Shown piece by piece: positions 4,893 through 36,976 of a stretch of DNA of 64,000 nucleotides. Below the pieces are notes generated by a model. That model had not been told where the DNA came from. It saw only the letters and a program-made list of their open reading frames with translations, and did not search any database. The translations under genes and the position numbers were made by a program. How positions within the stretch are numbered: position 1 is the stretch's first letter; the number at the start of each line of letters is the position of its first letter. Location of the stretch: positions 5,022,001 to 5,086,000 of the forward strand of contig NZ_JAFFHZ010000001.1 in assembly GCF_017052585.1 (NCBI RefSeq). The letters are read 5' to 3'. The stretch comes from Paenibacillus apiarius (GTDB taxonomy: Bacteria > Bacillota > Bacilli > Paenibacillales > Paenibacillaceae).

Positions 4893-4955
4893 TTCGGAAG
4901 TGAGGGGCATAATTCATAGGGAGGCTAAAAAAGAAGCGCCAAGGAGCTGAGATTG

Positions 4956-9237: not shown

Positions 9238-9249
9238 AGGGTGAAGATG

Positions 9250-12200: not shown

Positions 12201-12513
12201 GGAAGAGCAACTGGCGGAAGTGTGGCAGGACGTACTCGGCATCGGAAATATTGGGATATTTGATAATTACTATGAACTTGGAGGAGACTCCATCAAAGCC
12301 ATTCAGATTTGCGCCCGGCTCCGAGATCATCAACTGAACTTGAGCGTGACCGATTTACTGAAAAACCCCACGATCAAAGAGTTGAAACGGCGCATTCGCT
12401 TGTTGAACCCAAATAAGGAAAATGAGCTGAGTGATTCGGATTATTCAGGGATATCCATCGATGAGCTTTCAGACTTGGAGGAGGATCTAAGAGCTTCCAT
12501 AGATCAGGGGTAG
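9250..12513 (+). CDS. Nonribosomal peptide synthetase, elongation module C-A(Ile)-T
   Basis: A synthetase of 1087 residues with one module. The condensation domain covers about 5-440, with the active-site motif HHILMDGW near 145. The adenylation domain covers about 465-960, with YTSGSTGRPKG near 625, and the carrier has LGGDS near 1010. The specificity residues align to DGFFLGMVY, one change from the well-known Ile code DGFFLGVVY, so Ile (or a close branched residue) is predicted. The N-terminal FQKELVEDMYILSPTQEGMLF looks like a COM acceptor matching the upstream synthetase. The ATG at 9250 is chosen because AAAGGG lies 8 bases upstream, while a GTG at 9241 would abut it. The gene follows the A-T-E synthetase by a few bases in one operon. 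There is no epimerase, so Ile stays L. Confidence 0.9.
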   Translation: MTFQKELVEDMYILSPTQEGMLFHSLEDGNSSAYFVQIVTPVYGELDAALMIESFERLVQRHDVFRTTFLYDNLKQPLQIVLIERPASIVIEKLDDSNDEMKHERIGQFLQKDREAGFHLTTDPLIRLALLQTAGSEWVIVLSFHHILMDGWCSDLVFNELFHMYASLKERIAVELPPPAPYSQYIKWLENQDKEAAGRYWKTCLDRCEQSARLPWLKKKETSLPYTPMEYSFSFGREATGQLAWIAKQNQVTLNAIFQAIWGLILQKYNDQTDVVFGSVVTARPAAIRGMEQMIGLFINTLPVRVQTQANQSFQSLMRQMHEQTVKSYEFAYFPLSRIQREAVGGSQIFDHILVFDHHPVEQQWEQISTGLGLQVGEQKVIEHTNYDVSITAALKNDELTVTFIYNSNVIHEKEIKRISTHIVNVANCVRDDISIPVRKISLTSSAEIQGLLRSNMTKTNHTKDQTIADLFEKQVCETPKHTALIFAGQTLTYEKLNRKANQLAHLLQGKGAEPDCLVGLMAERSMEMVIGIIGILKSNGAYVPMDPDNPVHRLRMILDDSKVPIVLVQRSALPKLKEVLQHTEGKEEIEYCVIEDALRETKPDMLVNPVRTCAPHHLGYVMYTSGSTGRPKGILTQQNNIIRVVKDTNYITINPEDTLLQLSSFSFDGSAFDIFGPLLNGAALVLVRQEALLEMNMLLQIIADEEVSVFFTTTALFNTLVDVDMKSLAKVRKVLFGGERVSLLHVKKAFEYMGKGKILHMYGPTESTVYAAYHEVNAIDESLGTVPIGVPLSNTEILILSKENHLQPVGVIGELCIAGDGLARGYLNNEVLTQEKFAAHPFNPEERMYRTGDLARWLEDGTIEFVGRADHQVKLRGFRIELGEIEYRLLSHEAVKEAVVVDCQDPSGGKTLCAYYVAHRNISSAELRERLSESLPYYMIPSYFVRMEAWPLNSNGKVEKKRLPLPDWNADHGNGFEPPHGELEEQLAEVWQDVLGIGNIGIFDNYYELGGDSIKAIQICARLRDHQLNLSVTDLLKNPTIKELKRRIRLLNPNKENELSDSDYSGISIDELSDLEEDLRASIDQG

Positions 12514-12552
12514 ATACACTATTCAGGAACAAATCGGAGGGTGAAGATACAC

Positions 12553-18500: not shown

Positions 18501-21500
18501 CGGCGATGCCAGCATGACCTATCGCGAATTGAACGAGCGTTCCAATCAGATCGCTCATTACCTACAGGAACAAGGCGTAGGCAGAAATGACTTTGTCGGA
18601 GTGCGGGCAGAGCGCCAAGTCGGGACTATCGTCAACATCCTCGGGATATTAAAAGCGGGAGCGGCCTATGTGCCGATTGATCCGGAGTACCCCGAAGACC
18701 GGATAAGCTACATGGCAGAGAACAGCAGCTGCAAGATGGTCATGGATCCGGGTTGGTATGAATCCTGGCATACCGCAAGCTGTCCGACAGCAGATCCGGA
18801 GGATATTCATCAGCCGCAGGACGTGGCGTATGTGGTCTATACTTCGGGCAGTACAGGAAGGCCGAAGGGGGTCGTCATTTCCCATGGAGCGGCCGCGAAT
18901 ACGATTCAGGACATCAACAACAAGCACGCCGTGGACGAAACGGATCGAATCATCGGCTTATCCTCCATGTGCTTTGATTTGTCGGTGTATGATATTTTCG
19001 GCGCCCTCGGAGCCGGGGCTGCCTTGGTGATGGTGCAGGATCAGCGGGAAGTAGCCGGCCTGTGGGCGACCGTTGAGAAAGAAGGAATAACGATATGGAA
19101 CTCCGTACCGGCCATCATGGAAATGCTGGCGGATAACATCGGGAAGGATTCGATCCACTGCAAGATGAAGGCGGTATTGCTGAGCGGCGATTGGATTCCG
19201 TTGCATCTGGCCGGCAAAGTCAGACGTCACTTCCCCCATGCGCAAATCATCAGCTTGGGCGGGGCAACGGAAGCGTCCATCTGGTCCATCTACTATCCAA
19301 TCGGGGAGTTGGCGGAAGGGATGTCCTCGATACCGTATGGGATGCCGCTGGCAAATCAACAGATCTATGTGTTGAACTATGAATTGAAGCATTGTCCGGT
19401 GGGCGTGCAGGGAGAGCTGTACATTGGCGGCATCGGTCTGGCCGAAGGGTATTTGAATGACGGGGAGAAGACGCGGAGCGCCTTCATTATGCACCCGGAA
19501 CTGGGCAGAATTTACCGGACCGGTGATTATGGCATATTGCACCGGGCGGGCTACATTGAATTCCTTGGGCGCAAGGACCAGCAGGTCAAGATACGCGGCT
19601 ACAGGGTCGAGCTGGGCGAGATTGAACGAAGACTGGTTGAACATGACTTTGTGGGCAGCGCCGTCGTTGTGGACTGCCGTGACCCAAGGGGAAAAACCGC
19701 CCTGTGCGCCTATTATGTAAGCGGCGATGAAGAATTGACGGCAGAGGAGCTGCGCATCTACTTGCTGCGTGAGCTGCCGGAATACATGGTGCCTGCTTAT
19801 TTTATCGAGCTGCCGGAGCTGCCGCTGACCGCAAATGGAAAGGTGGACCGGAAATCACTTCCTGAACCAGATGCGGAGGCTGGCGGCCGCTCCTTGTATG
19901 AAGCGCCGCGCAACGAGACGGAAACCAAGCTTGCGGGAATCTGGGAGGAGGCGCTGGGAGTTGAGAGAGTCGGCATACACGATAATTTCTTTGAATTGGG
20001 AGGCAACTCGATTCAGATGGTGCAGATCCGCACGCGGATCGGCAAGGAGCTGGGGAGCGATGTTAGTCTGCGGGATTTCCTGCAAAATAACACGATCGCT
20101 AGACTGGGAGAACGGATAGCGGCAGGCAGCCAAGCGCAAACGGTCAAATATCCGGAGCTAGTGCCGGATCCTGCCCGCATGTATGAACCGTTCCCTCTCA
20201 CGGATGTCCAGATGGCCTATCTGATAGGAAGAGAGGACCATTTTGAGCTGGGCGGCGTTTCCACCCATGCTTATCTGGAGCTAGAGACGCATTTGGACAT
20301 GGGCCGGTTTAATGAGGCTTTGCTGAAAGTAATTGACCGCCATTCCATGCTCCGGACGATCGTGCTGCCAACCGGGCAACAAAGAGTTCTGGAGCATGTT
20401 CCGAACTATAGGATTGAGATTGCAGATATTTCTCACTTGGACGCGATGGCACAAGAACAATGCATTGCCAGAGAGCGGGAACGAATGTCGCATTATGTAT
20501 TCCCGTCGGATCAATGGCCATTGTTTGAATATAAGGCATATAAGCTGTCTGAAGGACTGCATTATTTATTCATCGGTTATGACATGCTGATAACAGACGG
20601 AGCCAGCTTTCAGCTTATTCATAAAGAAGTGATGAGCTATTATAATCAACCTGATCGGCTGCTGCCGGAACTCCCTGTCACATTTCGCGACTATATGATG
20701 TCATACACCGATTTTCAGAATTCGGAGAGTTATGCCAAGGATAAGCAGTATTGGTTGAACAAACTGGAAGATTTTCCGGAAGCTCCGGCTCTTCTTTATG
20801 CAACGAAGCCTGAGAATATAATAAAGCCCCATTTTTACAGAAAAACGAATCATCTGAACGAGGACGTATATAAGAAGCTGAAAAAGAAAGCAAGAGAATA
20901 TAATGTCACTCCTTCGGCGGTGCTATGCACCGCATTTGCCAAGGTCTTATCTTATTGGAGCAATCAGGAGCGAATCGCGCTCAACTGCACCGTTTTCAAC
21001 CGGTTTCCGTTCCATGAGGATGTATATAGCCTGATTGGCGATTTCACATCGGTTATGCTGCTTGATATTCAGATATCGCCGGAGGCATCGTTCTGGGGGA
21101 ATGCGGAAACGGTTCAGGATGTGATGATGGAAGCTCTTGAGCATAGACACTATGACGGAGTTAAGTTCATACGGGACATTGCCCGCTATAACAATTTGAG
21201 CGGCAACAAGGCGATTATGCCGATCGTATTTACCAGTATGCTGCTGGATGCGAATGCGGATTCGCAGGAAGAACAGCACCAGATGGGGGAAGTCAAGATG
21301 GCTCTTTCCCAGACCTCTCAAGTAATTATAGATTATCAAGTGCTAGAGGCAGACGGGGGCTTAACCATCACTTGGGACTATGTTAAGGAATTATTTGATC
21401 CTGGCGTAATCGAAGTAATGTTCACCGAATACTTCACCATGCTTGATCAGGTGTTAGGCACTGAGTCTGCCTATGTGATGAGCGGCAGAGATGAAGACAG

Positions 21501-24202: not shown

Positions 24203-24250
24203 CATTGGGGTTTGTTGTTATACATAGATTCTATTGAGAGGGGAATATTG

Positions 24251-25642
24251 GTGAAAGCTAGCAGATGGAATATGCTTAAGCGCAGCGTGGCCAGCGGGTT
24301 AGTTGCCTTGATCGCTATGCTCGGATTCGTCATACCGGCACAAGCGAATGAAGTGCCTGCCGCCGTTCCGCAGATTAGTCCGTGGTCGATGAAAGTTCTG
24401 AATGAAGGGGAGAAGTACGGCATTTTCCCGCTTGCGTGGTACTATGACGGAACTTTTCAGCAGCCGATTACACAAGACAAGTTTGAAGCTTTAATTGAAG
24501 CTACTTCAGCCAAATTGGATGCGCTCGAATTAAAGAAAAAAAGGAATGCCGTTGTACCGACGGGAACAAAGGAAATTACGAGAGAAACGGTAGTGAATGC
24601 TGTGTACGGCGTGTTGGCCCAGTATGAATTGCCTGAATCGCTAGAAATGGATAAGTACGAGCCAATCGCGTTCTTGCAGAAGAAAGGCATTGTCAACGGA
24701 ACGGACAAAGGGCTTGAGCTTGATAAGCCGAGCACCGTGGAGCAAGCGGCTGTAATCGCAAGTCGTCTTGTTGAATACACATATGACGCTGTTGGAGGCG
24801 GAGCAAAGGGGCTTTTCTGGAAAGCAACGAAAGGGCAAAATACGCTCTACTTGTTAGGTGCGATTCACTTGGGTATTCCTGATATGTATCCAATGCAAAA
24901 AAATGTAAGAGACGCATTTCAACAGTCCGATGCATTGTGGGTAGAAGTGAATTTGCAAGGCAACAAAGATATGGTGTATTTTCTTGAGTCGATGGCGTAC
25001 AGCGACGGCACGGCATTGAAAGATCATGTTTCTACAGAAACATACGAAAAGCTGCATAAGGTTCTGGAGCAACTGAAATTGCCTTTGGATACCTTTGACG
25101 CTTTCAAGCCTTGGGCAATCTCGAACAATCTCGTGCTGTCCAATATGACAGGCTCTTCTGAAGAAATGGCTCAGGCAGCAGCATTAGGCGTCGATATGTA
25201 CTTTACGAGTTCGGCATTGTTAACTGGAAAGCCGATTCATGAGTTAGAAGGACTCAAGTTCCAAGCTGACCTCTTCAACAATGTGCCGATTACAGTTCAA
25301 GAAAAAGAATTAAACGATGCGTTGGATCAGATCCTGACGCCGACAGGAAAGCCTGATGATGCGCTTGAGCAGTTTAAGCAATGGCAGCAGCTATGGACCA
25401 AAGCTGAACTGGACCAATTCACTCAATCCTTCACGGGTTCGGAGGAAATGGTGAAGAGCGATTCAGCCCAAAGATTGTTCGGGGAACGGGACAAAAATAT
25501 GACGAAGAAGCTGATGGAACTATTGGATAAAGAAGGTTCTTCCACCCACTTTGTTGTCGTCGGAGCAGGGCACTTCGTTATCAAAGATATGATTATCGAT
25601 CAGTTAAAAGCGAAAGGCTACGACGTTGAGTTCGTAAAATAA
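24251..25642 (+). CDS. Exported TraB/GumN-family protein with SLH-like N-terminus
   Basis: A 463-residue protein with a signal peptide (positive start, then LVALIAMLGFVIPAQANE). Residues of about 40-175 look like two degenerate S-layer-homology repeats (PITQDKFEALI; KKGIVNGTDKGLELDKPSTVEQAAVIASRLV). The rest is a TraB/GumN (PrgY-like) domain that begins with FWKATKGQNTLYLLGAIHLG and ends with the conserved VVVGAGHFV segment. TraB domains are thought to be metallopeptidase-related, with conserved GxxH and Glu. The protein probably sits on the cell wall. The GTG at 24251 fits AGGGGA 7-9 bases upstream and places the signal peptide at the N-terminus, unlike the upstream TTG at 24212. It is monocistronic, between two terminators. 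Confidence 0.8.
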   Translation: MKASRWNMLKRSVASGLVALIAMLGFVIPAQANEVPAAVPQISPWSMKVLNEGEKYGIFPLAWYYDGTFQQPITQDKFEALIEATSAKLDALELKKKRNAVVPTGTKEITRETVVNAVYGVLAQYELPESLEMDKYEPIAFLQKKGIVNGTDKGLELDKPSTVEQAAVIASRLVEYTYDAVGGGAKGLFWKATKGQNTLYLLGAIHLGIPDMYPMQKNVRDAFQQSDALWVEVNLQGNKDMVYFLESMAYSDGTALKDHVSTETYEKLHKVLEQLKLPLDTFDAFKPWAISNNLVLSNMTGSSEEMAQAAALGVDMYFTSSALLTGKPIHELEGLKFQADLFNNVPITVQEKELNDALDQILTPTGKPDDALEQFKQWQQLWTKAELDQFTQSFTGSEEMVKSDSAQRLFGERDKNMTKKLMELLDKEGSSTHFVVVGAGHFVIKDMIIDQLKAKGYDVEFVK

Positions 25643-25764: not shown

Positions 25765-25896
25765 GACGCTCGGTTGTTCGCCCATACGTATCATGATGAA
25801 GTTGCTGGATTGGTGCTGATCGATGCCTGGCCCGAAGATGATGAGCGGGAGATAGCGCCGATACTTGTTGATAATGATAACTATTATCAACTATAA
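25765..25896 (+). pseudogene. Remnant of an alpha/beta hydrolase gene
   Basis: In one frame about 40 codons read LFAHTYHDEVAGLVLIDAWPEDD, a close match to the segment just after the nucleophile elbow of alpha/beta hydrolases (YAxxYPDEVAGLVLIDxxHED). No start, no GxSxG motif and no C-terminal half are present. The frame runs on into the Fur box of the next gene. It is the stump of a deleted gene whose tail was replaced by the iron-regulated promoter. Confidence 0.45.
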
Positions 25897-25949: not shown

Positions 25950-27959
25950 TTGAACATAATGCGGTTACGCGAACAACTTGTACTGTGGAATCAGGCATCC
26001 ATTAAGGTGATGGATATTCGTCATATCACAATGAGAGCAAACGAGGAACTTCGCTCATATCCATTGCCAGCCAGCAGTTTCTTTTATACCGTGAACGGCA
26101 GCGCGAACATACAGTTGGATGACGTGATGCACCAGGCCAACCCATTTTATATCGTACATGGCGGAAAAGGCTGCTGCGTAGACATTTTTCCGACGGAAGA
26201 GGCTTTCGAATACTATCTTCTATACTATAAAGCGTCAATTTCTCCTCATGTCCACCAGAGATTCGGCAAGATGCTGGAGCGAAGCAATCCGTTTCTTATC
26301 CAGTATGGATTTGCGCCGGGTCATCCTATTTCATTGCTGCGCAGTGTACAGCTCATGCATAAGGAGTGGGAGGAGAACGGGGAGCTGGAACAGTTCCACG
26401 TGAAGGCGCTGTTCCATCAATTTGTATACGAGCTGCTATGGCAAATTCACAGCCAGCATATACCGACACGAAAGGCTGATGTGGTGGCACAAGCAATCCA
26501 ATATGTGCATAGGCATTATGCTGACCTCATTACGATGGAGAAGCTTGCAGCAATGCTGGACAGCAGTCCGCGCCATCTATCCAGGTTGTTCAAGCAGCAT
26601 ACTGGCAGCAGCCCCGTGGATTACGTCATTCAGATTCGCATGGACAAGGCGAGGGAATTGCTCCTTTCAACAGGAGCGAACTTGCAGGAGATCGCAGAAA
26701 GCGTCGGGTATTCAGACAGCTATTATTTTGCGAAAATGTTCAAAAAACACGTGGGAGTCGCGCCAATCCGTTATCGCACGGAGAACAGAGGAAAGTCATG
26801 TCCGAATGTGCCATCGGCTGTGGCTCGATATAACATTGTGCAGCAGACAAGCCGCTATTATAGTGAATATGAGAATCATTATCACTATAAATCAGGGGGA
26901 AACCTATCTATGCATGACAGTCGAACATCTTCTGTGGCGGTCACTCTATTGCTCTGCCTTACTCTATTGCTTAGCGCTTGCTCGACAGGAACGACAGGGA
27001 GCACATCCTTGAACGGAAGCGCACAGTCCAAACAAGCAGCATCGAATCACACTTCGGATACACCAGTTGCCGGCAACGCAGATAACAAGCAATCAACAGG
27101 GACAGCAGAACAGCCCAAAACCAAAATTGTGTCCACCGTCAAAGGCGATGTAGAAGTGCCGGTTAATCCGAAGCGGGTTGTCGTCTTATATTTGCTTGGT
27201 GATGTGCTTGCTTTTGGCGTGGATCCTGTGGGTATCTCAGACGTGTATAAAGGGGCAGCATTTGAAAGTGAATTGGCAGGCATTCAATCATTGGGTGAAT
27301 GGTTCCAGCCAAGTCCCGAGGCAGTGCTTGCGCTTAACCCAGACTTAATTATCGTTCCTTCCGAAGAAACCTATGCAATGCTCAATCAGATTGCACCTAC
27401 GGTTTATTTGCCCTATGAGCAAATGTCTTTAGAAGAACGCTTGAAGAAGCTCGGAGAAGCCTTGGGCAAGGAAGGCGGGCAGTCACAGGCTTTGCTGGAC
27501 AACTTCTACGCAAAGGTGGTACAGAGTAAGCAGAAGCTGAAGGAAGCCGGCATATTGGACAAGACGGTATCCATTATGGAAGGCGGCGCGGGCAACATGG
27601 GTGTCATCTCCAGCAAGCAATATGGTCGTGGGTCACAGATAATATATGAATACTTGGGGATGAAGGCTCCGGCAATTGTTCAGAAGGAAATAGACAAGAA
27701 CGGTGAGAAACCAGCGACTCTGCTTCCTGCCTCTATGGAAGTATTGCATGGATTTTCCGGAGATTACATATTCCGCTCCGCGTATGAAGGAATGGAGGAT
27801 CTTTCCGACAATAAAATTTGGAACAGCATGCTGGCTGTGAAGGAAGGCCGACTTATCGACATAAGCTTCGGACTGTCCTACTATAATGACATTTATTCAC
27901 TAGATAAGCAGCTAGATTACATTGTGAACAGTTTGCTGGAAACTGCTAAGGCTAAATAA
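25950..27959 (+). CDS. AraC-type regulator fused in frame to a siderophore-binding lipoprotein (paralogue 1)
   Basis: A 669-codon ORF. Residues 1 to about 165 are the effector domain of an AraC regulator related to Bacillus Btr. About 185-285 hold the paired helix-turn-helix (LAAMLDSSPRHLSRLFKQHTG; LQEIAESVGYSDSYYFAKMFKKHVG). From 321 a complete lipoprotein begins: a hydrophobic signal and lipobox LLSAC with Cys near 344, a low-complexity linker, then a FeuA/FecB-like binding domain from about 390. There is no stop between the parts. The join encodes YENHYHYK through a Fur box, followed by AGGGGGA and an ATG at 26910. So the locus can make both the fusion and a free lipoprotein. The start is taken as TTG 25950 (AGGAG 4 bases away); ATG 25959 is the alternative. 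No permease or ATPase partner is nearby. Confidence 0.85.
   Translation: MNIMRLREQLVLWNQASIKVMDIRHITMRANEELRSYPLPASSFFYTVNGSANIQLDDVMHQANPFYIVHGGKGCCVDIFPTEEAFEYYLLYYKASISPHVHQRFGKMLERSNPFLIQYGFAPGHPISLLRSVQLMHKEWEENGELEQFHVKALFHQFVYELLWQIHSQHIPTRKADVVAQAIQYVHRHYADLITMEKLAAMLDSSPRHLSRLFKQHTGSSPVDYVIQIRMDKARELLLSTGANLQEIAESVGYSDSYYFAKMFKKHVGVAPIRYRTENRGKSCPNVPSAVARYNIVQQTSRYYSEYENHYHYKSGGNLSMHDSRTSSVAVTLLLCLTLLLSACSTGTTGSTSLNGSAQSKQAASNHTSDTPVAGNADNKQSTGTAEQPKTKIVSTVKGDVEVPVNPKRVVVLYLLGDVLAFGVDPVGISDVYKGAAFESELAGIQSLGEWFQPSPEAVLALNPDLIIVPSEETYAMLNQIAPTVYLPYEQMSLEERLKKLGEALGKEGGQSQALLDNFYAKVVQSKQKLKEAGILDKTVSIMEGGAGNMGVISSKQYGRGSQIIYEYLGMKAPAIVQKEIDKNGEKPATLLPASMEVLHGFSGDYIFRSAYEGMEDLSDNKIWNSMLAVKEGRLIDISFGLSYYNDIYSLDKQLDYIVNSLLETAKAK
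26870..26912 (+). promoter_or_regulatory. Intragenic Fur box, RBS and start codon for the lipoprotein half (paralogue 1)
   Basis: TGAGAATCATTATCA (26870-26884) is a 7-1-7 Fur box with one mismatch. A -10-like TATAAA (26886-26891), AGGGGGA (26894-26900) and ATG (26910-26912) follow, the last in frame with the AraC ORF. A longer inverted repeat, TTATAGTGA and TCACTATAA, brackets the box. No good -35 is visible, so an independent promoter is uncertain, but the ribosome binding site is strong. Confidence 0.65.
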
Positions 27960-28080
27960 CAATCGGATATCGAGAGTAGGGCATCTGTCTTGTGCAGGTG
28001 CCCTTCACGCATTTCTGGCATATCGCAGGAGAAGAATGCATGGGGAATTGAAATTCGGAGGCGAGAGAGGAGATGATGCG

Positions 28081-29718
28081 TTGAACGTCAATGAACATAT
28101 CTGGCTATGGAACCACGCGTCGATTCATGTGCTTGACGTCCGCCATGTCATGATGGAGCTTGGGGAGCAGCTGCATGTTCGTGCGTTATTCCTCCAATTT
28201 GTATACGAGCTGCTATGGCAAATGGATAGGCAAGGCATTACAACCGTGAAGCCGGATCTGATTACACAAGCTATACGTTATATACATGATAAGTTCCCTG
28301 AATCGTTATCATTGGATTCGATTGCTCAAGCGTTGAACTACAACGTTCATTATTTTTCCAGAAAATTCAAACGGCAAATGGGACAAAGCCCAATTGCTTA
28401 CTTGATTCAGGTTAGGATGGAACATGCGCAGAATTTGCTGCTGAATACGAATGCGACGCTGCAGGAAATTGCGGAACGAGTAGGATACACAGACTTGTAT
28501 TACTTCATCCGGATTTTCAAGAAGCATGCGGGGCTATCCCCAGGGAAATATAGGGATTCTATGTTGAATATGAAAAAGGCTCCGGATCGTCCATTCAGCA
28601 GGTTCAGAACCTCCATTGTGAAGCGAAGTCCTCAGCGATATAGTATGGATGTGTGTGAGAATCATTATCAATACTATAAAGAAGGAGATCTACCAATGCA
28701 TAGACGGACCAAATTAACAATGGCGGCGACGGCATTCCTGTGCTTGGCTTTATTGCTGAGCGCCTGCTCCAGTGGGGCGACACCAACACAAGGAAGTGCT
28801 GTGAGTGGGGGAGAGACATTGCCGGCGCCAACTGCAAGCAGCTCCCAATCGGCAGACGATCAGACAAGCTCTTTAACTGCAACGAGATTATACAAGGATA
28901 GTGGAGGGCATGAGATAGACATCCCGAAGAATCCGCAGCGCATCGTATTGCAAGGCAATCCGATCGGCGATTTGCTGGCACTTGGCATACAACCGGTCGG
29001 GATTGATCGTCGGTTTATTGAAGGTTCGGTATACAAGGATAAGGAGCATACACCAGCAGAGGATATCGGCTATCCAACGAATATGGAAACCGTTCTTTCC
29101 CTGGATCCAGACTTGACCATGCTATCCTATATTTTAGACAAGGAATATGAGGAAGCGTCCAAGATTTCTCCGGTCGTCGTGTTCGACGGGGCTTTGCCTA
29201 TGAAGGAGCGCTTTCCCGTCATTGCGGATATAGTGGGGAAGAAAACGGAAGCAGAACAACTGCTAGCGAACTACAATCACAAGGCTGAAGCGATGTGGAA
29301 CAATTTGCGGGACAGCGGTAAGATAGCCGATGGTGAGACGGCCGTTATACTTCAGTATTTTTGGAATCGCTCGATGTATGTGATGAAGACAGGTGGACTT
29401 GCTGAACTGCTTTATCAGCCTGCCGGGTTCGCGATGGATGCGAAGGTGAAGACGTTAGAGCCCAATAGCGGTCCCTATATTGAGGTGGCTGAGGAAGCCA
29501 TGCACGAAACACTGATCGGAGATCATCTTTTTGTACTGTACACGGGCGATAAAGGGGCTAAGAAGTCATTTGACGAATTAGTGAAGTCTCCATTGTGGAA
29601 ATCACTCCCTGCAGTAAAGAACGGCAACGTTCATTTTATGGAGGACAAATGGAATTATAATGACATGATGACGAGCGGCATGCTGCTGGATGAATTCCCT
29701 AAGGTGATATCTCCGTAA
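28081..29718 (+). CDS. AraC-lipoprotein ORF with deleted sensor domain (paralogue 2)
   Basis: A 545-codon relative of the preceding ORF. After the shared start (HIWLWNHASIHVLDVRHVMMELGEQL) it jumps to HVRALFLQFVYELLWQ, skipping about 110 residues that are present in paralogues 1 and 3. Most of the AraC effector domain is therefore missing in frame, while both helix-turn-helices remain (IAQALNYNVHYFSRKFKRQ; LQEIAERVGYTDLYYFIRIFKK). The lipoprotein half starts at an internal ATG (28696) with lipobox LLSAC and an iron-siderophore-type binding domain. The TTG at 28081 is chosen because AGGAG is 8 bases upstream and the N-terminus then aligns with the paralogues. An ATG at 28036 is possible. No separate promoter or T-rich terminator lies in the 121-base gap, so it is probably cotranscribed with paralogue 1. 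Confidence 0.8.
   Translation: MNVNEHIWLWNHASIHVLDVRHVMMELGEQLHVRALFLQFVYELLWQMDRQGITTVKPDLITQAIRYIHDKFPESLSLDSIAQALNYNVHYFSRKFKRQMGQSPIAYLIQVRMEHAQNLLLNTNATLQEIAERVGYTDLYYFIRIFKKHAGLSPGKYRDSMLNMKKAPDRPFSRFRTSIVKRSPQRYSMDVCENHYQYYKEGDLPMHRRTKLTMAATAFLCLALLLSACSSGATPTQGSAVSGGETLPAPTASSSQSADDQTSSLTATRLYKDSGGHEIDIPKNPQRIVLQGNPIGDLLALGIQPVGIDRRFIEGSVYKDKEHTPAEDIGYPTNMETVLSLDPDLTMLSYILDKEYEEASKISPVVVFDGALPMKERFPVIADIVGKKTEAEQLLANYNHKAEAMWNNLRDSGKIADGETAVILQYFWNRSMYVMKTGGLAELLYQPAGFAMDAKVKTLEPNSGPYIEVAEEAMHETLIGDHLFVLYTGDKGAKKSFDELVKSPLWKSLPAVKNGNVHFMEDKWNYNDMMTSGMLLDEFPKVISP
28656..28698 (+). promoter_or_regulatory. Intragenic Fur box, RBS and start codon for the lipoprotein half (paralogue 2)
   Basis: TGAGAATCATTATCA (28656-28670), identical to the box in paralogue 1, then TATAAA (28675-28680), AAGGAGA (28682-28688) and an in-frame ATG (28696) 7 bases later. 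The DNA is also read as CENHYQYYK in the fusion. Confidence 0.65.
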
Positions 29719-29774
29719 GTCAAGAAGCGACCAAATCTCTGAGATGTTCAAGAGATAGTCAAACCTATTATCCG

Positions 29775-29873
29775 CTCCGGGATATTACCAAGGCTTTTGG
29801 CTTGCAGATGAAATTTCGCAATTCACGAGCCAATGATGCCACTTACGGATTTCCGGAAATCGAAATCTACTAG
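29775..29873 (+). pseudogene. Possible C-terminal stump of an F5/8 type C (discoidin-like) domain gene
   Basis: A stretch of 32 codons ends in ATYGFPEIEIY and a stop, which resembles the last strand of carbohydrate-binding discoidin domains (YGFxEIEVY). There is no start codon or upstream part. It lies in the 264-base gap between paralogue 2 and the peptidase gene, with no other feature there apart from a weak hairpin near 29920-29945. Confidence 0.25.
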
Positions 29874-29982
29874 CCTTCAGCTAATGGAGGTTGAGAGAGG
29901 CTCCGCAAAAGGTCAGAAGGACAGCTGTAAGCCGTCTTTCTGAGCTTCTTGCAGAGATTATTGGTCAGCGGCAGCAGGGGAG

Positions 29983-31197
29983 CTACAGCGAAATCAGATC
30001 CCGGGACAGCTTGTTCAGCCGCTCGCAGCCATTGTCCGTGATTAACACCATATCCTCGATCATGATCGAGCCGATACCGTAGCCGTAGTACGGTGTTTCC
30101 AGGCAGATGACCATGCCCGGGAGAAAGACGGTATCCTCCGATGGACTCAGGAACGGAGCTTCCTCGGCCGCGAGACTCAGTCCTGCGCTGTGCCCCAGAT
30201 GGCCCCGATTGTAATTCGGGAGTCCCGAGCGGCGGATCAAAGCCATCACTTCATCGAACGCGCGCTTCATCGGCAGGCCTGGTTCGATTAGCTCCAGCAG
30301 CCGATCGTGTCCGGCCCGCAGCGCGCCGTATATGCGCTTCACCGTGTCCGAAGGAGAGCCGAGCACGAAGGTGCGGGCAATGTCCGAACCGTAACCGGCC
30401 ACATCGACGCCGACATCGAATTTGATCAAGTCGCCCGGCTGTCCCGGACGCGTATCGAAAATATGCGCAGGGGCGAAATGCGCGCCGACGGAAATCATGT
30501 GGAAGCGGGATGACGATCCGTCCGCATGGGTCAGCAAAGCGCGCCGGAAATGGTCGGCAATCTCGGCGGCCGAGCTGCCAGTCCGGATTCCCTTTATCGT
30601 TTCGGTGATGCCAATTTCGGCGTAAGCGCAGCTCTTGCGCAACTGCTCGATTTCCCAAGGCGTCTTGCGTGCGCGCAGCTCGGTCAGTAACGCGCTCGCT
30701 TCCGTCAGCTCAAGACCCGGTATAGCTTCGCGCAACGCATTCACGGCCGGATATCGCATCGAGCTCAGCTCCACAGCCGCCTTGCCGCTGCTAATTCCGT
30801 GTTCAGCCAGCACCTGCCGGAGGAGCCCGAACATCCCCTGCACTTGATGGTTTACAGGCCGCCGCCCCTCGTACTTGGCGCCGCGCAGCCCAAGCGGATC
30901 GTCTACGTCGACCCAGGTCGGATACGTTCGCAGCTCGCATTGAGGCAAATCTTCCTGTACGCCCGCGGCCTCAAACTCATTCATAATGATGACTGTGCGG
31001 CGGGTCGGGTCGCGAAACATAACAGCCAGCGCAACTTCGCTCATGCGCAATGTATACATGAACGTGCTGGGGTGGCCGGACAAGTAGTAGAAATTTTCGC
31101 AGCTCGATGCCACAAGAACTTCTACATTTTCCTTCTCCATGATCGCTCGCGCCCGCTCCGCGACATTCTTCAAATGCTCTGCTTTGCCGTGAACCAC
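29983..31197 (-). CDS. M24-family metallopeptidase (Xaa-Pro dipeptidase/aminopeptidase-like)
   Basis: A 404-residue pita-bread-fold peptidase. The N-terminal creatinase-like domain covers about 1-165 and the catalytic domain the rest. The five metal ligands are visible: Asp in KFDVGVD, Asp in GSDIARTF, His in GHLGHSAGL, Glu in CLETPYYG and Glu in IMIEDMV. It probably cleaves Xaa-Pro peptides or a related amide in the cytoplasm. It is the last gene of a TetR-binding protein-permease-ATPase-peptidase operon, so the imported solute may be a peptide or modified amino acid that this enzyme hydrolyses. The GTG start at 31197 has GAAGGAG 8 bases upstream. Confidence 0.87.
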   Translation of the reverse strand: MVHGKAEHLKNVAERARAIMEKENVEVLVASSCENFYYLSGHPSTFMYTLRMSEVALAVMFRDPTRRTVIIMNEFEAAGVQEDLPQCELRTYPTWVDVDDPLGLRGAKYEGRRPVNHQVQGMFGLLRQVLAEHGISSGKAAVELSSMRYPAVNALREAIPGLELTEASALLTELRARKTPWEIEQLRKSCAYAEIGITETIKGIRTGSSAAEIADHFRRALLTHADGSSSRFHMISVGAHFAPAHIFDTRPGQPGDLIKFDVGVDVAGYGSDIARTFVLGSPSDTVKRIYGALRAGHDRLLELIEPGLPMKRAFDEVMALIRRSGLPNYNRGHLGHSAGLSLAAEEAPFLSPSEDTVFLPGMVICLETPYYGYGIGSIMIEDMVLITDNGCERLNKLSRDLISL

Positions 31198-31224
31198 ACT
31201 GTCAACTCCTTCGAATCTTTCTCG

Positions 31225-31992
31225 TTATTCCGTTTCCGGTTCGCTCGCGAGCTGCCGCAAAAACTTGCGGGCCCGCTCCGTCTGCGGCTGAACGAAAAAT
31301 CGGTCAGGCGAACCTTCTTCCTGAATTTTTCCGTCGCTCATAAAAATAACCCGATTCGCCACTTCCCGCGCAAACTTCATCTCGTGGGTGACGACGATCA
31401 TCGTCATACCTTCCGTGGCAAGCTGCTTCATGACCGACAGCACTTCTCCCGTCAATTCGGGGTCCAGTGCGGATGTTGGCTCGTCGAACAGCATCATTTG
31501 CGGCTGCATGGCGAGAGCCCGGGCAATGGCTACCCGCTGCTGCTGGCCGCCGGACAGCCGGGAAGGATATTCATTCTTTTTGTTTAACAGCCCCACTTTT
31601 GCGAGCAGAGACTCTCCGGTTTCGACCGCCTGCGCTTTGCTCATCTTTTTTACAATCGTGGGAGCCATAATGACGTTCTCCAAGGCGGTCATATGCGGAA
31701 ACAGATTAAAAGACTGGAACACCATGCCGGTTAACGTCCGGATGTGCCGTACCGCCTCCTTCTTAGCTGGTGCGCCCATCGAGGCGTTCCATGTTGCATC
31801 GCCCACCCGGATCGACCCTTCGTCAGGCGCCTCCAGACCGTTCAAGCAGCGCAGCAGCGTGCTTTTGCCGGAACCGCTCGGTCCGACCAAGACCACGATT
31901 TCTCCGGAACGAATATGCAGATCGATATCGCGGAACACGACCAGATCGCCGAAGCTCTTGCCAAGTTTGTTTACCTCAATCATGTCATTCAC
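31225..31992 (-). CDS. Polar amino acid ABC transporter, ATP-binding protein
   Basis: A 255-residue GlnQ/HisP-type ATPase with Walker [10 protein letters not shown] near 37, a Q-loop [11 protein letters not shown], the signature LSGGQQQR and Walker [13 protein letters not shown]. It energises the uptake complex formed with the permease and binding protein encoded upstream in the same operon. Its start lies 6 bases after the permease stop codon. The substrate is not fixed by this subunit. Confidence 0.92.
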
Positions 31993-31998
31993 ACGCCC

Positions 31999-32643
31999 TT
32001 AATATGCTTTTGACAACCGCGTTTCGATACGGTTCAGAATCGAAGAGAAGAACACGCTCATAATCCAATACATGAGCGCAATGGCCACATAAAAAGGCAT
32101 GGCGATATAATACTGCGCAATTAGCAGTTGCGCGGAGCGCAGCAGCTCGGTAACGGTAACGACGGACACGAGCGACGTCTCCTTCAGCATCCCGATAAAC
32201 GTATTGCCGAGCGGCGGAATCGCCACGCGGGCCGCCTGCGGCAGCACGACCCGCCGCATCGTCTGCCACGGCGTCAATCCTAGGGATAGAGCGGCTTCCG
32301 TCTGCCCATTGGATACGGATAATATCGCGCCGCGGAAGGTTTCGGACAAGTATGCGCTGATGTTGACGCTAAGTGAAATAAAGGCCGCAGTGAGCGGCCC
32401 AAGCGTAATCCCGAAATCGGGCAGTCCGTAATAAATAATGAAGATTTGCACCAGGATTGGTGTTCCCCGAACGATGGAAACGTAACCTTTGGCCAAATTA
32501 CGGACGAACCAATTTCCTTTCAAGCGGGCAATGGCGACGATCATCCCGATGAGGAGTCCGAAGAACATGGAAACGATGGTGATCAAGAGTGTGTAATACG
32601 CGCCCGTCAATAGAAATTGTAAGTTTTGTGTAACGAGTTCCAT
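31999..32643 (-). CDS. Polar amino acid ABC transporter, permease protein
   Basis: A 214-residue HisM/GlnP-type membrane subunit with about five transmembrane helices and the EAA loop (EAALSLGLTPWQTMRRVVLPQA begins near 124) that contacts the ATPase. Typical permeases of this family work as homodimers. It lies between the binding-protein gene (27-base gap) and the ATPase gene (6-base gap). Confidence 0.9.
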   Translation of the reverse strand: MELVTQNLQFLLTGAYYTLLITIVSMFFGLLIGMIVAIARLKGNWFVRNLAKGYVSIVRGTPILVQIFIIYYGLPDFGITLGPLTAAFISLSVNISAYLSETFRGAILSVSNGQTEAALSLGLTPWQTMRRVVLPQAARVAIPPLGNTFIGMLKETSLVSVVTVTELLRSAQLLIAQYYIAMPFYVAIALMYWIMSVFFSSILNRIETRLSKAY

Positions 32644-32670
32644 TTCCTGTACCCTCCCGGTTCGTATGGA

Positions 32671-33495
32671 TTAAAAGTTCGGATCCACGCCAAACCATTT
32701 TTGGAAAATCTCTTTAAATGTGCCGTCGGATTTCATCTCGGCGAGCGCTTTATTGATTGCATCGAGCAGCTCCGGATTGTTTTGGCGGATCGCGATTCCG
32801 GCGAAATCCTCTTTAATCGGATCTCCGACCGCCTTGACGGCGAAGTGATTTTTCTCGATTAGAGGCTTGATGGCGAATACGTTATTAATGGTCGCATCGA
32901 TGCGGCCGACGTTCAAATCTTGCAGGGACGTGATGACATCGTTATACGTGGCGATTTCGAACGTGCCGACTTCCGGCATCGCGACGTCACGCAAATATTT
33001 CTCATCGTTCGTGCCGAGCCCGACGCCAATCTTTTTGTCTTTGAAATCTTCAAGTTTCTCGATCGTCGTATTGTCGCTTTTGACGAGGACATTCACGGCG
33101 TTTTTCACGTAAGGCGTCGAGAAATCCATCTTTTGCTTGCGATCCTCCGTAATCGTTACTTGGCTTACAAGCGCATCGTATTTATCCTTCTGCAGCCCTT
33201 CGATCAGCCCGGAGAATTCGCCGGTGATGAATTCCACTTCCACACCCAAACGCTTCGCCACTGCTTTAGCGACATCCGCATCGAAGCCGTCGACTTCGCG
33301 CTTGTCGTTCAGGAAGTTGTATGGGGCATAGGTGCCCATTAGCCCGACTCTGATTTTTCCGGCTTTCTTGATTTGCTCAAGCGAGTTGGCGGCGTTCGCA
33401 TCCGGTGCTGGCTTGCTTCCGCATCCAACGAGCGCAATGGCTAAAACAGTTAGCAGTGAAGCAGCTTTCATGAATTTTTTGAATTTGACTGACAT
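32671..33495 (-). CDS. Amino acid ABC transporter substrate-binding lipoprotein
   Basis: A 274-residue extracellular solute-binding protein of family 3 with a lipobox (ALVGC, Cys near 25) and the family pattern GKIRVGLMGTYAPYNFLNDKREVDGFDADVA. Residues such as the Arg/Asp clamps suggest an amino acid or cystine-like ligand, but the exact one cannot be told. TAGGAGG lies 7 bases before the ATG. The gene is 34 bases downstream of the tetR-like gene and is probably cotranscribed with it. Confidence 0.9.
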   Translation of the reverse strand: MSVKFKKFMKAASLLTVLAIALVGCGSKPAPDANAANSLEQIKKAGKIRVGLMGTYAPYNFLNDKREVDGFDADVAKAVAKRLGVEVEFITGEFSGLIEGLQKDKYDALVSQVTITEDRKQKMDFSTPYVKNAVNVLVKSDNTTIEKLEDFKDKKIGVGLGTNDEKYLRDVAMPEVGTFEIATYNDVITSLQDLNVGRIDATINNVFAIKPLIEKNHFAVKAVGDPIKEDFAGIAIRQNNPELLDAINKALAEMKSDGTFKEIFQKWFGVDPNF

Positions 33496-33529
33496 GTTGG
33501 TTTCCTCCTAAGGGATCTATTTTAGTGGA

Positions 33530-34156
33530 TTATCCGAGTAACCCCCGGAATTCGAACTTGGCGGTTTCTTCAGCTATTTCCGATGGCGAATAGACTGACT
33601 TATAATCAACCTCGTGCATCGGTCCGAACAACCATTTGGACAGCACGCCGGTAATTAAACAGACAAGAATGTTGGCACGAAGCGCCAGATCGTTCGTACG
33701 GGGCAGCATCTCCAGCTCCATAGCCCGCTGAATATTGCTTTTGAACGCTTCTTCGAACGCAATCCAGGTTTGCGAGACGGCTTCCCGAACCGGCGGGTCG
33801 GCGCCTTGGCCTTTAATGAGCAGCAGAGCCATCAGACTTCGGTTCCGGTCGGCGAATAGGAACAAATCTGTGAGCAGTCGAGCGGACGAGCTTACCATAT
33901 CGTCAATCGTGCCTGTGTGTTTGCGGTAGCCTTGCGCAATCACCTTAATCAGCTTCTCCTTGCCGTCTTCGATTAACTTCAGCACAAGCTGCTCTTTGCT
34001 TTGGAAATACCAGTAGAACGTTCCTTGCGATACTCCTGCGGCTTTGACCACATCGGAAATTTTGGTGCTGTGATATCCTTTGCAGGCAATTATATTTAGC
34101 GCGGCGTCCATCAGTTGCTGACGACGATCCTGATCTTGTTTTGGTATGGCAGGCAG
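33530..34156 (-). CDS. TetR-family autoregulator of the ABC transporter/M24 operon
   Basis: A TetR regulator with the N-terminal helix-turn-helix (ISDVVKAAGVSQGTFYWYFQSKEQLV) and an all-alpha ligand domain. The first ATG (34111) lacks a ribosome binding site and would cut off helix 1. Reading upstream in frame gives PAIPKQDQDRRQQL, a normal TetR N-terminus, back to a CTG at 34156 that has GGAGAGGGG 9 bases upstream. A CTG start is therefore favoured, giving 208 residues; ATG 34111 (193 residues) is the fallback. It heads the operon whose promoter contains a perfect palindrome, so it should repress itself and the transporter until its ligand binds. Confidence 0.8.
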   Translation of the reverse strand: MPAIPKQDQDRRQQLMDAALNIIACKGYHSTKISDVVKAAGVSQGTFYWYFQSKEQLVLKLIEDGKEKLIKVIAQGYRKHTGTIDDMVSSSARLLTDLFLFADRNRSLMALLLIKGQGADPPVREAVSQTWIAFEEAFKSNIQRAMELEMLPRTNDLALRANILVCLITGVLSKWLFGPMHEVDYKSVYSPSEIAEETAKFEFRGLLG

Positions 34157-34176
34157 CTCCCATCGCCCCTCTCCAC

Positions 34177-34244
34177 TTAACTGACGAGTCAGTTAATATT
34201 AATTCCGATGGGAATACTATATTTAAAAGTTAACCTCGTGTCAA
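34177..34244 (-). promoter_or_regulatory. Promoter and TetR operator of the transporter operon
   Basis: On the minus strand TTGACA (34244-34239) and TATAGT (34221-34216) are 17 bases apart. Just after the expected start point lies the perfect 20-base palindrome TTAACTGACGAGTCAGTTAA (34177-34196), a typical TetR-type operator. Confidence 0.8.
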
Positions 34245-34257
34245 GCAAAATCATTAT

Positions 34258-34420
34258 GGCGTTGGACAATCTGCAGCAGCCATTATCTTAAATGAACGCA
34301 ATGAAATCTTATTGATCAAAGGGCCATCGCAGAGGCTGGGAGATGCCGGGCGGTCAACTGACAACAACAGAGGAAGCGCTGGAAGTTGGATATTATTCGA
34401 TAGAGGATGCTAAATCTTAA
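34258..34420 (+). pseudogene. Decayed Nudix hydrolase fragment
   Basis: Frame one reads GQSAAAIILNERNEILLIKGP, the N-terminal strand pair of a Nudix hydrolase. From about 34334 the match continues one frame over as GWEMPGGQLTTTEEALEVG and ends at a stop at 34418. So there is a frameshift, and most of the REVxEExG part of the Nudix box is deleted. Start and C-terminus are absent. Confidence 0.5.
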
Positions 34421-34443
34421 TGTTGATTTTTGACCAAAAGAAA

Positions 34444-34465
34444 ACCGCCCTGATGAAAAGGCGGT
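34444..34465 (-). terminator. Orphan hairpin with minus-strand T tract
   Basis: ACCGCC (34444-34449) and GGCGGT (34460-34465) form a stem. On the minus strand it is followed by TTTTCTTTT. No intact minus-strand gene ends here, so it may be left over from a lost gene. Confidence 0.4.
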
Positions 34466-34470
34466 AAATT

Positions 34471-34821
34471 GAAAACTATGATTACTATCCGCCTTCCTGG
34501 TGCATCATTGATGAGATGATCGAGGGAGCAGGCGGAGAGTATATGCAATTGTCCGAGGACGGATACGTTGAGCTGTCAATGGAGGCAATCATTGCCGCCA
34601 ATCCGGAAAAAATCATTCTCACGCAATTTCAGGAACCCGATAACGAAGTCATAAAGGACAAGCTGCTTGCGAACGAAAAGTTGAAAAATGTCGATGCCAT
34701 AAAAACAGGGAATGTTATGATGGCCGACTATACAAATGCAATTCGAGGCAGTCTTCAACTCGCCGATCTTTATGAAAAGGTAGCGGCGTTTATTCATCCG
34801 GAATTATTCCCGGGAAAGTAA
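34471..34821 (+). pseudogene. Truncated iron-siderophore/cobalamin ABC binding protein
   Basis: A frame from 34471 (first ATG 34516) reads IIDEMIEGAGGEYMQL, then AANPEKIILTQFQEP and a C-terminal AIRGSLQLADLYEKVAAFIHPELF. This is the C-lobe of a class III (BtuF/FecB-like) substrate-binding protein. The N-lobe, signal peptide and ribosome binding site are missing, so it is a 5'-deleted gene. It lies just before the Fur-controlled promoter of paralogue 3, among other debris. Confidence 0.65.
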
Positions 34822-34927
34822 ATAGGTTGCCACAAAAATAACATGGTGCCGTAAAAGGCCTGCGATAACGACCGCTTCTTGCATTTCCCTTGCCCTCCAA
34901 GATTTTTCGCCGTTCCCGCGCTCTTGG

Positions 34928-34957
34928 TTGTCATTGAGAATTATTATCATCTATAAT
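34928..34957 (+). promoter_or_regulatory. Fur-regulated promoter of the third AraC-lipoprotein ORF
   Basis: TTGTCA (34928-34933) and TATAAT (34952-34957) are 18 bases apart, and the Fur box TGAGAATTATTATCA (34935-34949) fills the spacer. The geometry is the same as upstream of paralogue 1. Confidence 0.8.
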
Positions 34958-35005
34958 GGTTATTGAAACAGCTGGAATTGAAGCGGAGAGGGTTGACTGG
35001 ACACG

Positions 35006-36976
35006 ATGATCGAGAATGACCATATATTGCTGTGGAATCATGCTTCCATCAAGGTGATGGATGTGCGCCATACGCTGATGAGAACGGGTGAAGCCCTGCA
35101 TTCTTACCGGCTGCCGGCCAGTATGTTCCTGCTCGCGACGCGCGGCGGCGCACATGTGCAGCTCGACGGCACGGAATATATCATAGAGCGATGTCAAGTG
35201 ATGCATAGCGGCAAGGGGGCTCATCTGGACATTTTCCTGATCGAAGAAGAATTTGAATACTATATGATTTTTTATAAAGCATCGATTCCGCTTCCAAGTC
35301 GTCAGGAAGTGATGAACGTATTGGAGAGAAGCAGTCCGTTTCATATGCAATACCGTTTTTCGCCGCACCAACCGATTTCACTTTTTTACAAAGTGAAGGC
35401 AATGGATCGAGAGTGGAGAAAGTCAGGCTCCCTGGAGCGATTCCAGGTGAAATCGTTGTTTTATCAATTCGTCCATACTATTTTGCAGCAGCTTTATGGA
35501 CAAGGGATTGAGATGAAAGAGCCGGATCTTGCTGCTCAAGCGATCTTGTACATTCAGGAGCATTATTCGGAAACGATCACGTTGGAGTCGCTTGCAGAAA
35601 GCCTCAACTACAGTGTGCCGCATTTATCGGCTTTGTTCAAAAAAAGAACGGGATACAGCCCGATCGATTATTTGATTCAGATACGGATCGACAGGGCGGC
35701 AAGCTTGCTGGTGGAAACGGATGCGACCTTGCGTGAAATTGCTGAAGGCGTGGGGTATAGGGATCCTTATTATTTTAGCCGTCTATTCAAAAAGTACAGG
35801 GGAGTATCGCCTGACCGCTTTAGAATCAGGGAATCGAGGCGGCGCACAGGAGAAGATAGTCCCTCCAACTCTATTGGATCCTCCATTGCTGGCCGAAGGT
35901 TTCAGCGTTATATTGATGATGATAATCGTTATCAATATAAGAGGGTGGGAGATATACCGATGTACAGACAATCCAAATCAACCGCTGCAGCAACATTATT
36001 TCTTTGTTTGGCTTTGCTGCTCAGCGCATGCTCTGGCGGCGCTTCAAGCACGGGCGCGGCTGCTGGAGGGAACCAAGGGCCGGCAGGTTCAGTGTCGGCG
36101 CCACTGAGTCCGGCCCAAGCGAATAACGGCCAAAATTCCGATAACCTGCAAACCAAAGTGGTATCGACGATGAACGGTGATGTAAAAATCCCGGTTCATC
36201 CCCAGCGCATTGTTGCGGATCAGTATTTAGGCAGCTTGATTGCGCTCGGCATTACTCCGATCGGAACGCCCGGATTGCACCGGAAAAACCCGTATTTCGC
36301 CGAAGCCCTTCAAAATGTGGCGGATATTGGCGATGAGAATGGCAATTTGGAGAAGGTGCTCGATTTGCAGCCGGATCTGATCGTGACCGGGGTGACACCC
36401 GATAAGAGCAGATATGAGCAATTATCCCAAATCGCTCCTACTGTTTCTATTCCCTATGGCGAATTGAAGAACGCGCATGAAGAGTTGACCTACTTCGGCA
36501 AGCTGCTGGGTAAAGAAAAGGAAGCGGAAGCCTGGCTGGCCGAATACGACCGCCGTATTGCCGCCGCACGGGAAAGCGCGCGCACAGCAGTACCGTCCGA
36601 CGCGACGTTTTCGATCTTTGAGCTGACGAGCAAGGCAACCTATGTGTACGGCGACAATTTCGGACGGGGGGGACAGGCTGTATACCAGGCGCTGGGCTTC
36701 AAACCGCCTGCCCATATTGCGGCGGAAATTTTGGAAAAGCAGTGGGCCGAGTTGTCCAATGAGTTATTGCCGCAATATGCCGGCGACTATATCATCCTGA
36801 CGTCTAACGACCGCACCTTGGAAGATATTAAAGCCGACCCGATCTGGGCTACGCTTGATGCGGTCAAAAACAATCGTGTGTACGTATGGAAAGAGGAGCG
36901 TTCCTGGTACTTTGATCCGATTGCCGTGCTGTCGCAAACGGAGGAAATCGCGGCTTGGCTGGCGGGGCAGCATTAA
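35006..36976 (+). CDS. AraC-type regulator fused in frame to a siderophore-binding lipoprotein (paralogue 3)
   Basis: A 656-codon ORF with the full plan: an AraC effector domain (about 1-165), paired helix-turn-helix (LAESLNYSVPHLSALFKKRTG; LREIAEGVGYRDPYYFSRLFKKYRG), then from residue 319 a lipoprotein with lipobox LLSAC and a class III siderophore-binding domain beginning near VPVHP-like KIPVHPQRIVADQYLG. As in the other two paralogues no stop separates the parts, and the join (DDNRYQYK) is a Fur box. The ATG at 35006 aligns with paralogue 2; GGAGAGG lies upstream at some distance. If made as one chain, the lipoprotein signal could act as a membrane anchor or be cut at the lipobox. It has its own Fur-box promoter. 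Confidence 0.85.
   Translation: MIENDHILLWNHASIKVMDVRHTLMRTGEALHSYRLPASMFLLATRGGAHVQLDGTEYIIERCQVMHSGKGAHLDIFLIEEEFEYYMIFYKASIPLPSRQEVMNVLERSSPFHMQYRFSPHQPISLFYKVKAMDREWRKSGSLERFQVKSLFYQFVHTILQQLYGQGIEMKEPDLAAQAILYIQEHYSETITLESLAESLNYSVPHLSALFKKRTGYSPIDYLIQIRIDRAASLLVETDATLREIAEGVGYRDPYYFSRLFKKYRGVSPDRFRIRESRRRTGEDSPSNSIGSSIAGRRFQRYIDDDNRYQYKRVGDIPMYRQSKSTAAATLFLCLALLLSACSGGASSTGAAAGGNQGPAGSVSAPLSPAQANNGQNSDNLQTKVVSTMNGDVKIPVHPQRIVADQYLGSLIALGITPIGTPGLHRKNPYFAEALQNVADIGDENGNLEKVLDLQPDLIVTGVTPDKSRYEQLSQIAPTVSIPYGELKNAHEELTYFGKLLGKEKEAEAWLAEYDRRIAAARESARTAVPSDATFSIFELTSKATYVYGDNFGRGGQAVYQALGFKPPAHIAAEILEKQWAELSNELLPQYAGDYIILTSNDRTLEDIKADPIWATLDAVKNNRVYVWKEERSWYFDPIAVLSQTEEIAAWLAGQH
35920..35962 (+). 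promoter_or_regulatory. Intragenic Fur box, RBS and start codon for the lipoprotein half (paralogue 3)
   Basis: TGATAATCGTTATCA (35920-35934) is a Fur box with one mismatch. GAGGGTGGGAG (35941-35951) and an in-frame ATG (35960) follow. The order box-RBS-ATG is the same as in paralogues 1 and 2. Confidence 0.65.

Follow-up and report, generated by a model that had tools for sequence, protein, structure and literature searches.

Gaballa and Helmann are said to have described in 2007 the bacillibactin regulator of Bacillus subtilis, Btr (YbbB). Btr works beside a separate receptor, FeuA; its own receptor domain comes directly after the HTH, and its two halves are not known to be separated by a signal peptide, a lipobox, an internal operator or a start codon. 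The fused genes analyzed here resemble Btr in that an AraC regulator is followed by a siderophore-binding domain in a single, Fur-linked chain, but they carry a signal peptide, a lipobox and an embedded operator and start between the halves. Btr is their nearest relative in domain order, and the signal peptide and embedded start set the fused genes apart. Against NF049932 (Btr), the fused ORFs scored 86–110 bits as compared to a cut-off of 900, with the HTH region as the best stretch, and none of the 11 matches in G000 reached 900 bits.

The FhuD, FhuD2 and FtsB lipoproteins share with the fused genes the receptor fold, the lipobox, the docking glutamates and, in some copies, FecCD neighbors, but here the receptor sequence forms the 3’ portion of a gene that begins with AraC. 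ToxR, TcpP and other transmembrane regulators, as presented in the portion of PMC10269533 cited here, are similar to the topology proposed below, with a DNA-binding part inside at the N-terminus, a single helix, and a sensor outside at the C-terminus. However, the helix in the fused genes is a lipoprotein signal peptide with a lipobox, the sensor would be a complete receptor of the transport kind, and translation of another product would begin inside the gene. The same Pfam pair as in the fused genes is recorded in Table 1 of PMC13293324, where HTH_18 is present in 98.7% of 229 Peripla_BP_2 genes with a co-occurring domain in siderophore clusters. The main text of PMC13293324 does not contain the terms ‘signal peptide’, ‘fusion’ or ‘Btr’, and no description of an embedded operator was found in the portion cited here. 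The design of a fusion with an embedded promoter and start was not found described in the open-access literature searched.

The window, which is the whole stretch of DNA analyzed, consists of 64,000 nt of the forward strand of Paenibacillus apiarius (GCF_017052585.1, NZ_JAFFHZ010000001.1, 5,022,001–5,086,000); coordinates are window positions, and the three fused ORFs with their elements lie on the plus strand. Three window ORFs have the order AraC regulator, linker (containing a Fur box, RBS and start codon), lipoprotein signal peptide, and FhuD-type siderophore-binding domain. HTH_18/HTH_AraC and Peripla_BP_2 are present in each (the HTH above the Pfam cut-off), and the signal peptide ends in LSAC in all three. 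The original prediction that the AraC frame stays open through the Fur box, RBS, ATG and signal peptide was borne out, as no stop interrupts any of the three ORFs between the AraC part and the lipoprotein, the Fur box included. Just 5’ of each junction Fur box, an element of the form TTGnnn-17 bp-TATAnT was recognized by eye.

ORF 1 (669 aa, 25950–27959) has a likely start at ATG 25959 and encodes HTH_18 at aa 199–277 and Peripla_BP_2 at aa 423–638. A Fur box with one mismatch precedes its AraC part (25875–25889). At the junction, the promoter-like element (26836–26864) consists of TTGTGC (26836–26841), 17 bp and TATAGT (26859–26864). It is followed by the Fur box TGAGAATCATTATCA (26870–26884, one mismatch; frame T GAG AAT CAT TAT CA), a G-rich RBS (26894–26899), the internal ATG (26910–26912) and the Cys codon of the LSAC lipobox (26979–26981). 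ORF 2 (560 aa, 28036–29718; likely start TTG 28081) retains the HTH and receptor, but the N-terminal cupin domain of its AraC part (28036–28350) is mostly lost. Nothing is missing from its junction elements or its receptor: the promoter-like element is TTGTGA, 17 bp, TATAGT (28616–28644), and the Fur box (28656–28670, one mismatch), RBS AAGGAGAT (28682–28689), internal ATG (28696–28698) and lipobox Cys codon (28765–28767) follow. An apparent ORF 2 orthologue in another genome (G010, locus L147) has an intact AraC part and a damaged receptor half. ORF 3 (656 aa, 35006–36976) is preceded by a Fur box (34935–34949) located in a scan of the window. Its junction contains TTGCTG, 17 bp, TATATT (35886–35914), the Fur box TGATAATCGTTATCA (35920–35934, one mismatch), the internal ATG (35960–35962) and the lipobox Cys codon (Cys342, 36029–36031). 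The promoter element, the cupin loss in ORF 2 and the second Fur boxes of genes 1 and 3 had not been part of the original prediction. Across the whole window, 14 Fur-box matches with at most three mismatches were found, some overlapping, as compared to 5.5 expected; a count of 14 was reached in none of 100 shuffles.

In ORF 3, an AraC regulatory domain (1–165), HTH (175–282) and receptor (381–656) were delimited, and a structure model placed a low-confidence linker (283–325), a helix (325–342) and a second low-confidence stretch (343–380) between HTH and receptor. The N-terminal domain was modelled with a pLDDT of 92.8 and matches the regulatory domains of AraC, BgaR and RhaR. In the full-length model (mean pLDDT 80.8, pTM 0.45), the AraC part is ordered, the linker falls under pLDDT 50 and the receptor resembles FhuD2/FtsB; the helix at 325–342 was modelled with middling confidence.

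Three paralogues had been predicted, which holds for the window; the genome as a whole contains five fused genes and one fragment. The start of the fourth is some 5.8 kb ahead of the window; the fifth is found some 0.75 Mb beyond it and is followed by a FecCD permease gene. The fragment of a sixth copy (L007, G000:C1:3098897-3099532) runs, within a frame of 229 aa, from the HTH to where the receptor begins. Upstream of the fused genes, window 4953–24042 holds a nitroreductase-family ORF and then three consecutive NRPS ORFs (1078, 1090 and 3833 aa), of which the third carries a thioesterase; these NRPS ORFs are possibly a siderophore cluster. A TraB/PrgY/gumN-family protein is encoded directly 5’ of ORF 1 (24212–25642), and the interval between ORF 2 and ORF 3 contains, on the minus strand (29983–34111), a peptidase M24, an ABC importer with an SBP_bac_3 component (amino-acid type) and a TetR regulator.

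Conservation was assessed in 104 distinct fused genes, five of them from the P. apiarius genome. A FecCD-type permease gene, defined as a relative of the L004 permease (PF01032), lies directly 3’ of 15 of the 104 and within 4 kb in three more, and another AraC fusion is directly 3’ of eight. Neither was present for 78/104 in up to 4 kb of downstream sequence, which was under 1 kb for three genes and under 4 kb for others. The lipobox Cys was retained in every fused gene and is invariant in the 41 that were aligned. The junction Fur box scored at least 12/14 in 100 genes and 11 in the remaining four, and its phase, T GAT AAT CAT TAT CA, was identical in all 104 even though the spacing from box to Cys takes seven different values between 100 and 118 nt. 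In each gene, 38–49 codons separate the HTH from an internal start codon (ATG in 95), which is followed by the signal peptide and, 20–27 codons downstream of the start, by the Cys. The hydrophobic segment has a mean Kyte-Doolittle value of 1.86–2.81 over 15 aa and is preceded by K/R. A second Fur box was found upstream of AraC in 67/104 genes, compared to 7/2080 shuffles. In a set of named Bacilli that shares genomes with the 104-gene set, 57/57 boxes scoring at least 12 were in this same phase; two of these (L260, L265) come from loci in which the AraC part is disrupted upstream, and the four lower-scoring rows besides the 57 include one Btr-like protein. The conserved junction supports the earlier proposal that the same DNA serves as operator, start region and coding linker.

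The arrangement is widely distributed. Full-protein searches matched 192 of 394 genomes of the family, some through the receptor half only, and surveys of the order and class matched 121/296 and 40/398 genomes, respectively. When only the AraC part was used as query, which leaves fusion out of the selection, matches were obtained in 24 of 25 genomes picked from those matching the full protein. One hundred regions were fetched by AraC similarity among the matches listed, regardless of fusion and with all short or interrupted frames noticed there included; in 93 of them, a fused ORF 590 aa long or longer was present. In the class survey, which scored at most five candidates per genome, at least 112 AraC matches were found, and 108/112, counted as rows, lay in open frames with a length of 616 aa or above. 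Named examples come from Paenibacillus, Cohnella, Brevibacillus, Lysinibacillus and Neobacillus, and one genome (G358) has at least 20 AraC matches among the matches listed. A sequencing or annotation artefact was rejected, as the same design is found in many genomes and several families, with some copies within one contig.

The 104 stop-free linkers, with lengths in multiples of three, are a consequence of choosing fused ORFs and were discounted; the argument relies instead on the samples fetched without regard to fusion and on the phase of the Fur box. If linker columns varied independently, 65.9 of the 104 linkers would be expected to contain a stop, a figure that ignores relatedness, and the other two frames of the same linkers contain 84 and 406 stops in 3264 codons each. 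As the box begins with TGA, an open frame alone rules out one of the three phases. Stand-alone receptors provided a control. Among 25 stand-alone lipoproteins of the same family without AraC, 22 had a Fur box scoring at least 12, in phases of 8/8/6. Their lipobox calls were automatic, with L044, L292 and L307 doubtful, and the phases are 8/7/5 without L292 and L307. Stops upstream of these receptors follow from the choice of short ORFs, so only the Fur phase was used. Since the box occurs in all three phases in stand-alone relatives, these data show, at the level of sequence, that selection maintains an uninterrupted and in-phase AraC frame leading into the receptor of the fused genes.

Frequent junction stops in orthologues, which according to the original prediction would speak against it, were not seen. 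In the sample seen, both halves were intact but split at three loci, compared to 104 fused. L165 (G280:C10) and L185 (G235:C1) have a frameshift at or just after the Fur box, and L184 (G280:C20) has a stop before it. Separate products are therefore tolerated at least sometimes. Damaged loci among the 100 regions were L147 (second gene), L183, L186, L164 and L181; unfused or broken loci in the named set were L227, L259 (the L165 locus), L260, L262, L265 and the second gene of L236. Two separate proteins could be made even with a stop codon in place, and selection on the open frame consequently favors a role for the covalent link. Chance read-through was rejected on the basis of the unselected regions, the expected number of stops and the phases of stand-alone receptors.

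Random synonymous recoding of 73 non-redundant junctions was used to assess selection on the DNA itself. The promoter score was 8.60 as compared to 7.48 after recoding (z 12.8), and the Fur score was 13.15 as compared to 11.72 (z 14.9). A Shine-Dalgarno match of at least 4 preceded the internal start in 67/73 junctions, with 53.4 expected (z 4.6); the mean Shine-Dalgarno length in these junctions was not clearly raised over recoding (z 1.3). Codon choice within the junction is skewed, with TAT used for 96% of Tyr and GAT for 99% of Asp, compared to 69% and 67% elsewhere in the same genes. Pooled over 161 non-independent pairs, dN/dS was 0.17 in both AraC and the signal peptide and 0.10 in the receptor, whereas the two parts of the linker gave 0.75 and 0.69. 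Linker dS was low (0.54 and 0.46 versus 1.43), as expected of constraint at the DNA level. The linker holds a predicted sigma-A-like promoter that, by these measures, is maintained by selection at synonymous sites. The linker peptides noted previously (ENHYHY, ENHYQYY, DNRYQY) are indeed coded by the operator, but they are barely conserved and, with a dN/dS of about 0.7, look like by-products of it. Conservation of the linker peptide itself was rejected on the basis of the same value, and the motif SIV.....RYI...DNHYQY mirrors promoter and operator. As judged from substitution patterns, the open frame is maintained and the linker amino acids are not.

In the receptor half, Glu449 and Glu586 align with glutamates of Bacillus FhuD, FtsB and FhuD2. 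According to the portion of PMC3741162 cited here, docking of the receptor to the permease is mediated by the equivalent residues in BtuF, FecB, FhuD2 and FeuA. Both were present in 148/148 fused and 36/36 stand-alone receptors (seven damaged rows dropped), compared to 14/35 and 15/35 for the two positions in Btr-like fusions without a signal peptide, and both are among the ten columns found in a scan for class-separating positions. This pattern indicates that the receptor half was selected for transport, and by its sequence it is a transport protein, a predicted FhuD-type siderophore-binding lipoprotein.

The two halves appear to have different histories. In an AraC tree (117 rows), fused and Btr-like sequences separate with three changes, and the fused AraC halves form nearly one group. 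In a receptor tree (148 rows), fused and stand-alone receptors intermingle, the fused label requiring 18 changes, at least 12 of them on starred branches. Both are quick LG trees with long branches flagged, which makes single placements unsure, and only their contrast was used. This contrast suggests that the AraC-junction unit exchanged receptors with stand-alone genes while the frame was kept, and such exchange seems to have taken place. Stand-alone receptors close to that of ORF 3 include L025, L026, L027, L043, L287–L295 and similar loci. Many of them have a Btr-like AraC-receptor gene without a signal peptide in the same fetched stretch, and they share an upstream stretch near AAGGCATAGNCAT, which may be an operator of the Btr-like gene.

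We infer two products per locus, as originally predicted, this being the simplest account of the conserved open frame, internal promoter, operator, start codon and lipobox. A single gene can apparently yield both the receptor on its own and a regulator joined to it. The internal Fur-controlled promoter, RBS, start codon and lipobox would give rise to a free FhuD-type receptor lipoprotein for uptake. In the long product, the signal-peptide helix would hold AraC at the inner face of the membrane and the receptor would face outward, an N-in, C-out arrangement like that of ToxR/CadC; this chain is probably a transmembrane siderophore sensor. Fe-siderophore bound outside would alter AraC activity at uptake-gene promoters once Fur repression is lifted, and the AraC targets would probably include its own junction promoter. 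A shared AraC binding site upstream was not identified in a brief look at six relatives. In close orthologues, an inverted repeat like CCCTTGC...GCAAGGG is present upstream of the AraC Fur box (window 34880–34935) and is a possible AraC site. Because the transporting and sensing receptor domains would be the same sequence, their specificity could not drift apart. We lean, with slightly better than even confidence, towards a dual-product gene for ligand-specific siderophore uptake, in which a free receptor is made alongside a long AraC-membrane-receptor chain acting as transmembrane sensor.

A chain started at AraC might instead stay in the cytoplasm with its internal signal peptide unexported and, like Btr, sense imported Fe-siderophore; the short form alone would then be exported, and one receptor sequence would serve two compartments. 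The domain order is that of Btr, NF049932 is the top NCBIfam match (over the HTH region), and fusions without a signal peptide adjoin many stand-alone lipoproteins. However, a strong hydrophobic segment with K/R before it would be expected to insert, and both docking glutamates are kept, unlike in Btr-like receptors, although the short form alone could explain the latter. On balance, a cytosolic long chain is considered unlikely.

Retention of the lipobox in every fused gene seen argues against an intact sensor, since an inserted long chain may be cut. The near-neutral linker dN/dS, the three split loci, the 78 genes with neither a FecCD gene nor another fusion downstream, the AraC site not identified in the brief look at six relatives and the middling confidence of the modelled helix also weigh against the preferred reading. 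Eep-type proteases cleave lipoprotein signal peptides. In a further alternative, the inserted chain would be a precursor cut by LspA at the lipobox, and an RseP/Eep-type intramembrane protease would free the AraC part held by the remaining stub. The invariant lipobox Cys and the flexible, unconserved linker are compatible with this, but a stop before the internal start would yield the same products and yet the frame is kept; quick cutting would leave the fusion unneeded. Such processing is slightly less probable than cytosolic retention. Two ordinary adjacent genes that lost a stop codon and are read through without function would fit the nearly neutral linker amino acids and the three split loci, but this is very improbable given the predominance of fused or fused-length frames in samples not chosen for fusion (93/100 regions, 108/112 matches), the single Fur phase across seven spacings as opposed to three phases in stand-alone genes, and the spread of the design over several families of Bacilli.

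The fused genes offer a clear natural case of one DNA stretch under three constraints, as promoter/operator, translation start and coding linker. The broader proposal is of a widespread Bacilli design in which a Fur-controlled promoter with its operator, RBS and start codon would also code for the tether of an AraC receptor that spans the membrane in one piece. One gene would then supply a free siderophore receptor and a membrane sensor with identical receptor domains, and receptors would have been swapped in frame onto a constant AraC-junction unit; we give this proposal somewhat less than an even chance. If true, each AraC match in a genome, of which there can be 20 or more, would correspond to a separate xenosiderophore module that induces itself. 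Among the genera compared in the portion of PMC13293324 cited here, the ratio of such receptor genes to siderophore clusters is highest in Paenibacillus (29.43), which raises the question of how each receptor is switched on by its own ligand. The gene design suggests a testable answer, namely that each receptor carries its own regulator. If a copy is annotated as a single long AraC protein, the transport receptor within it would go unnoticed.
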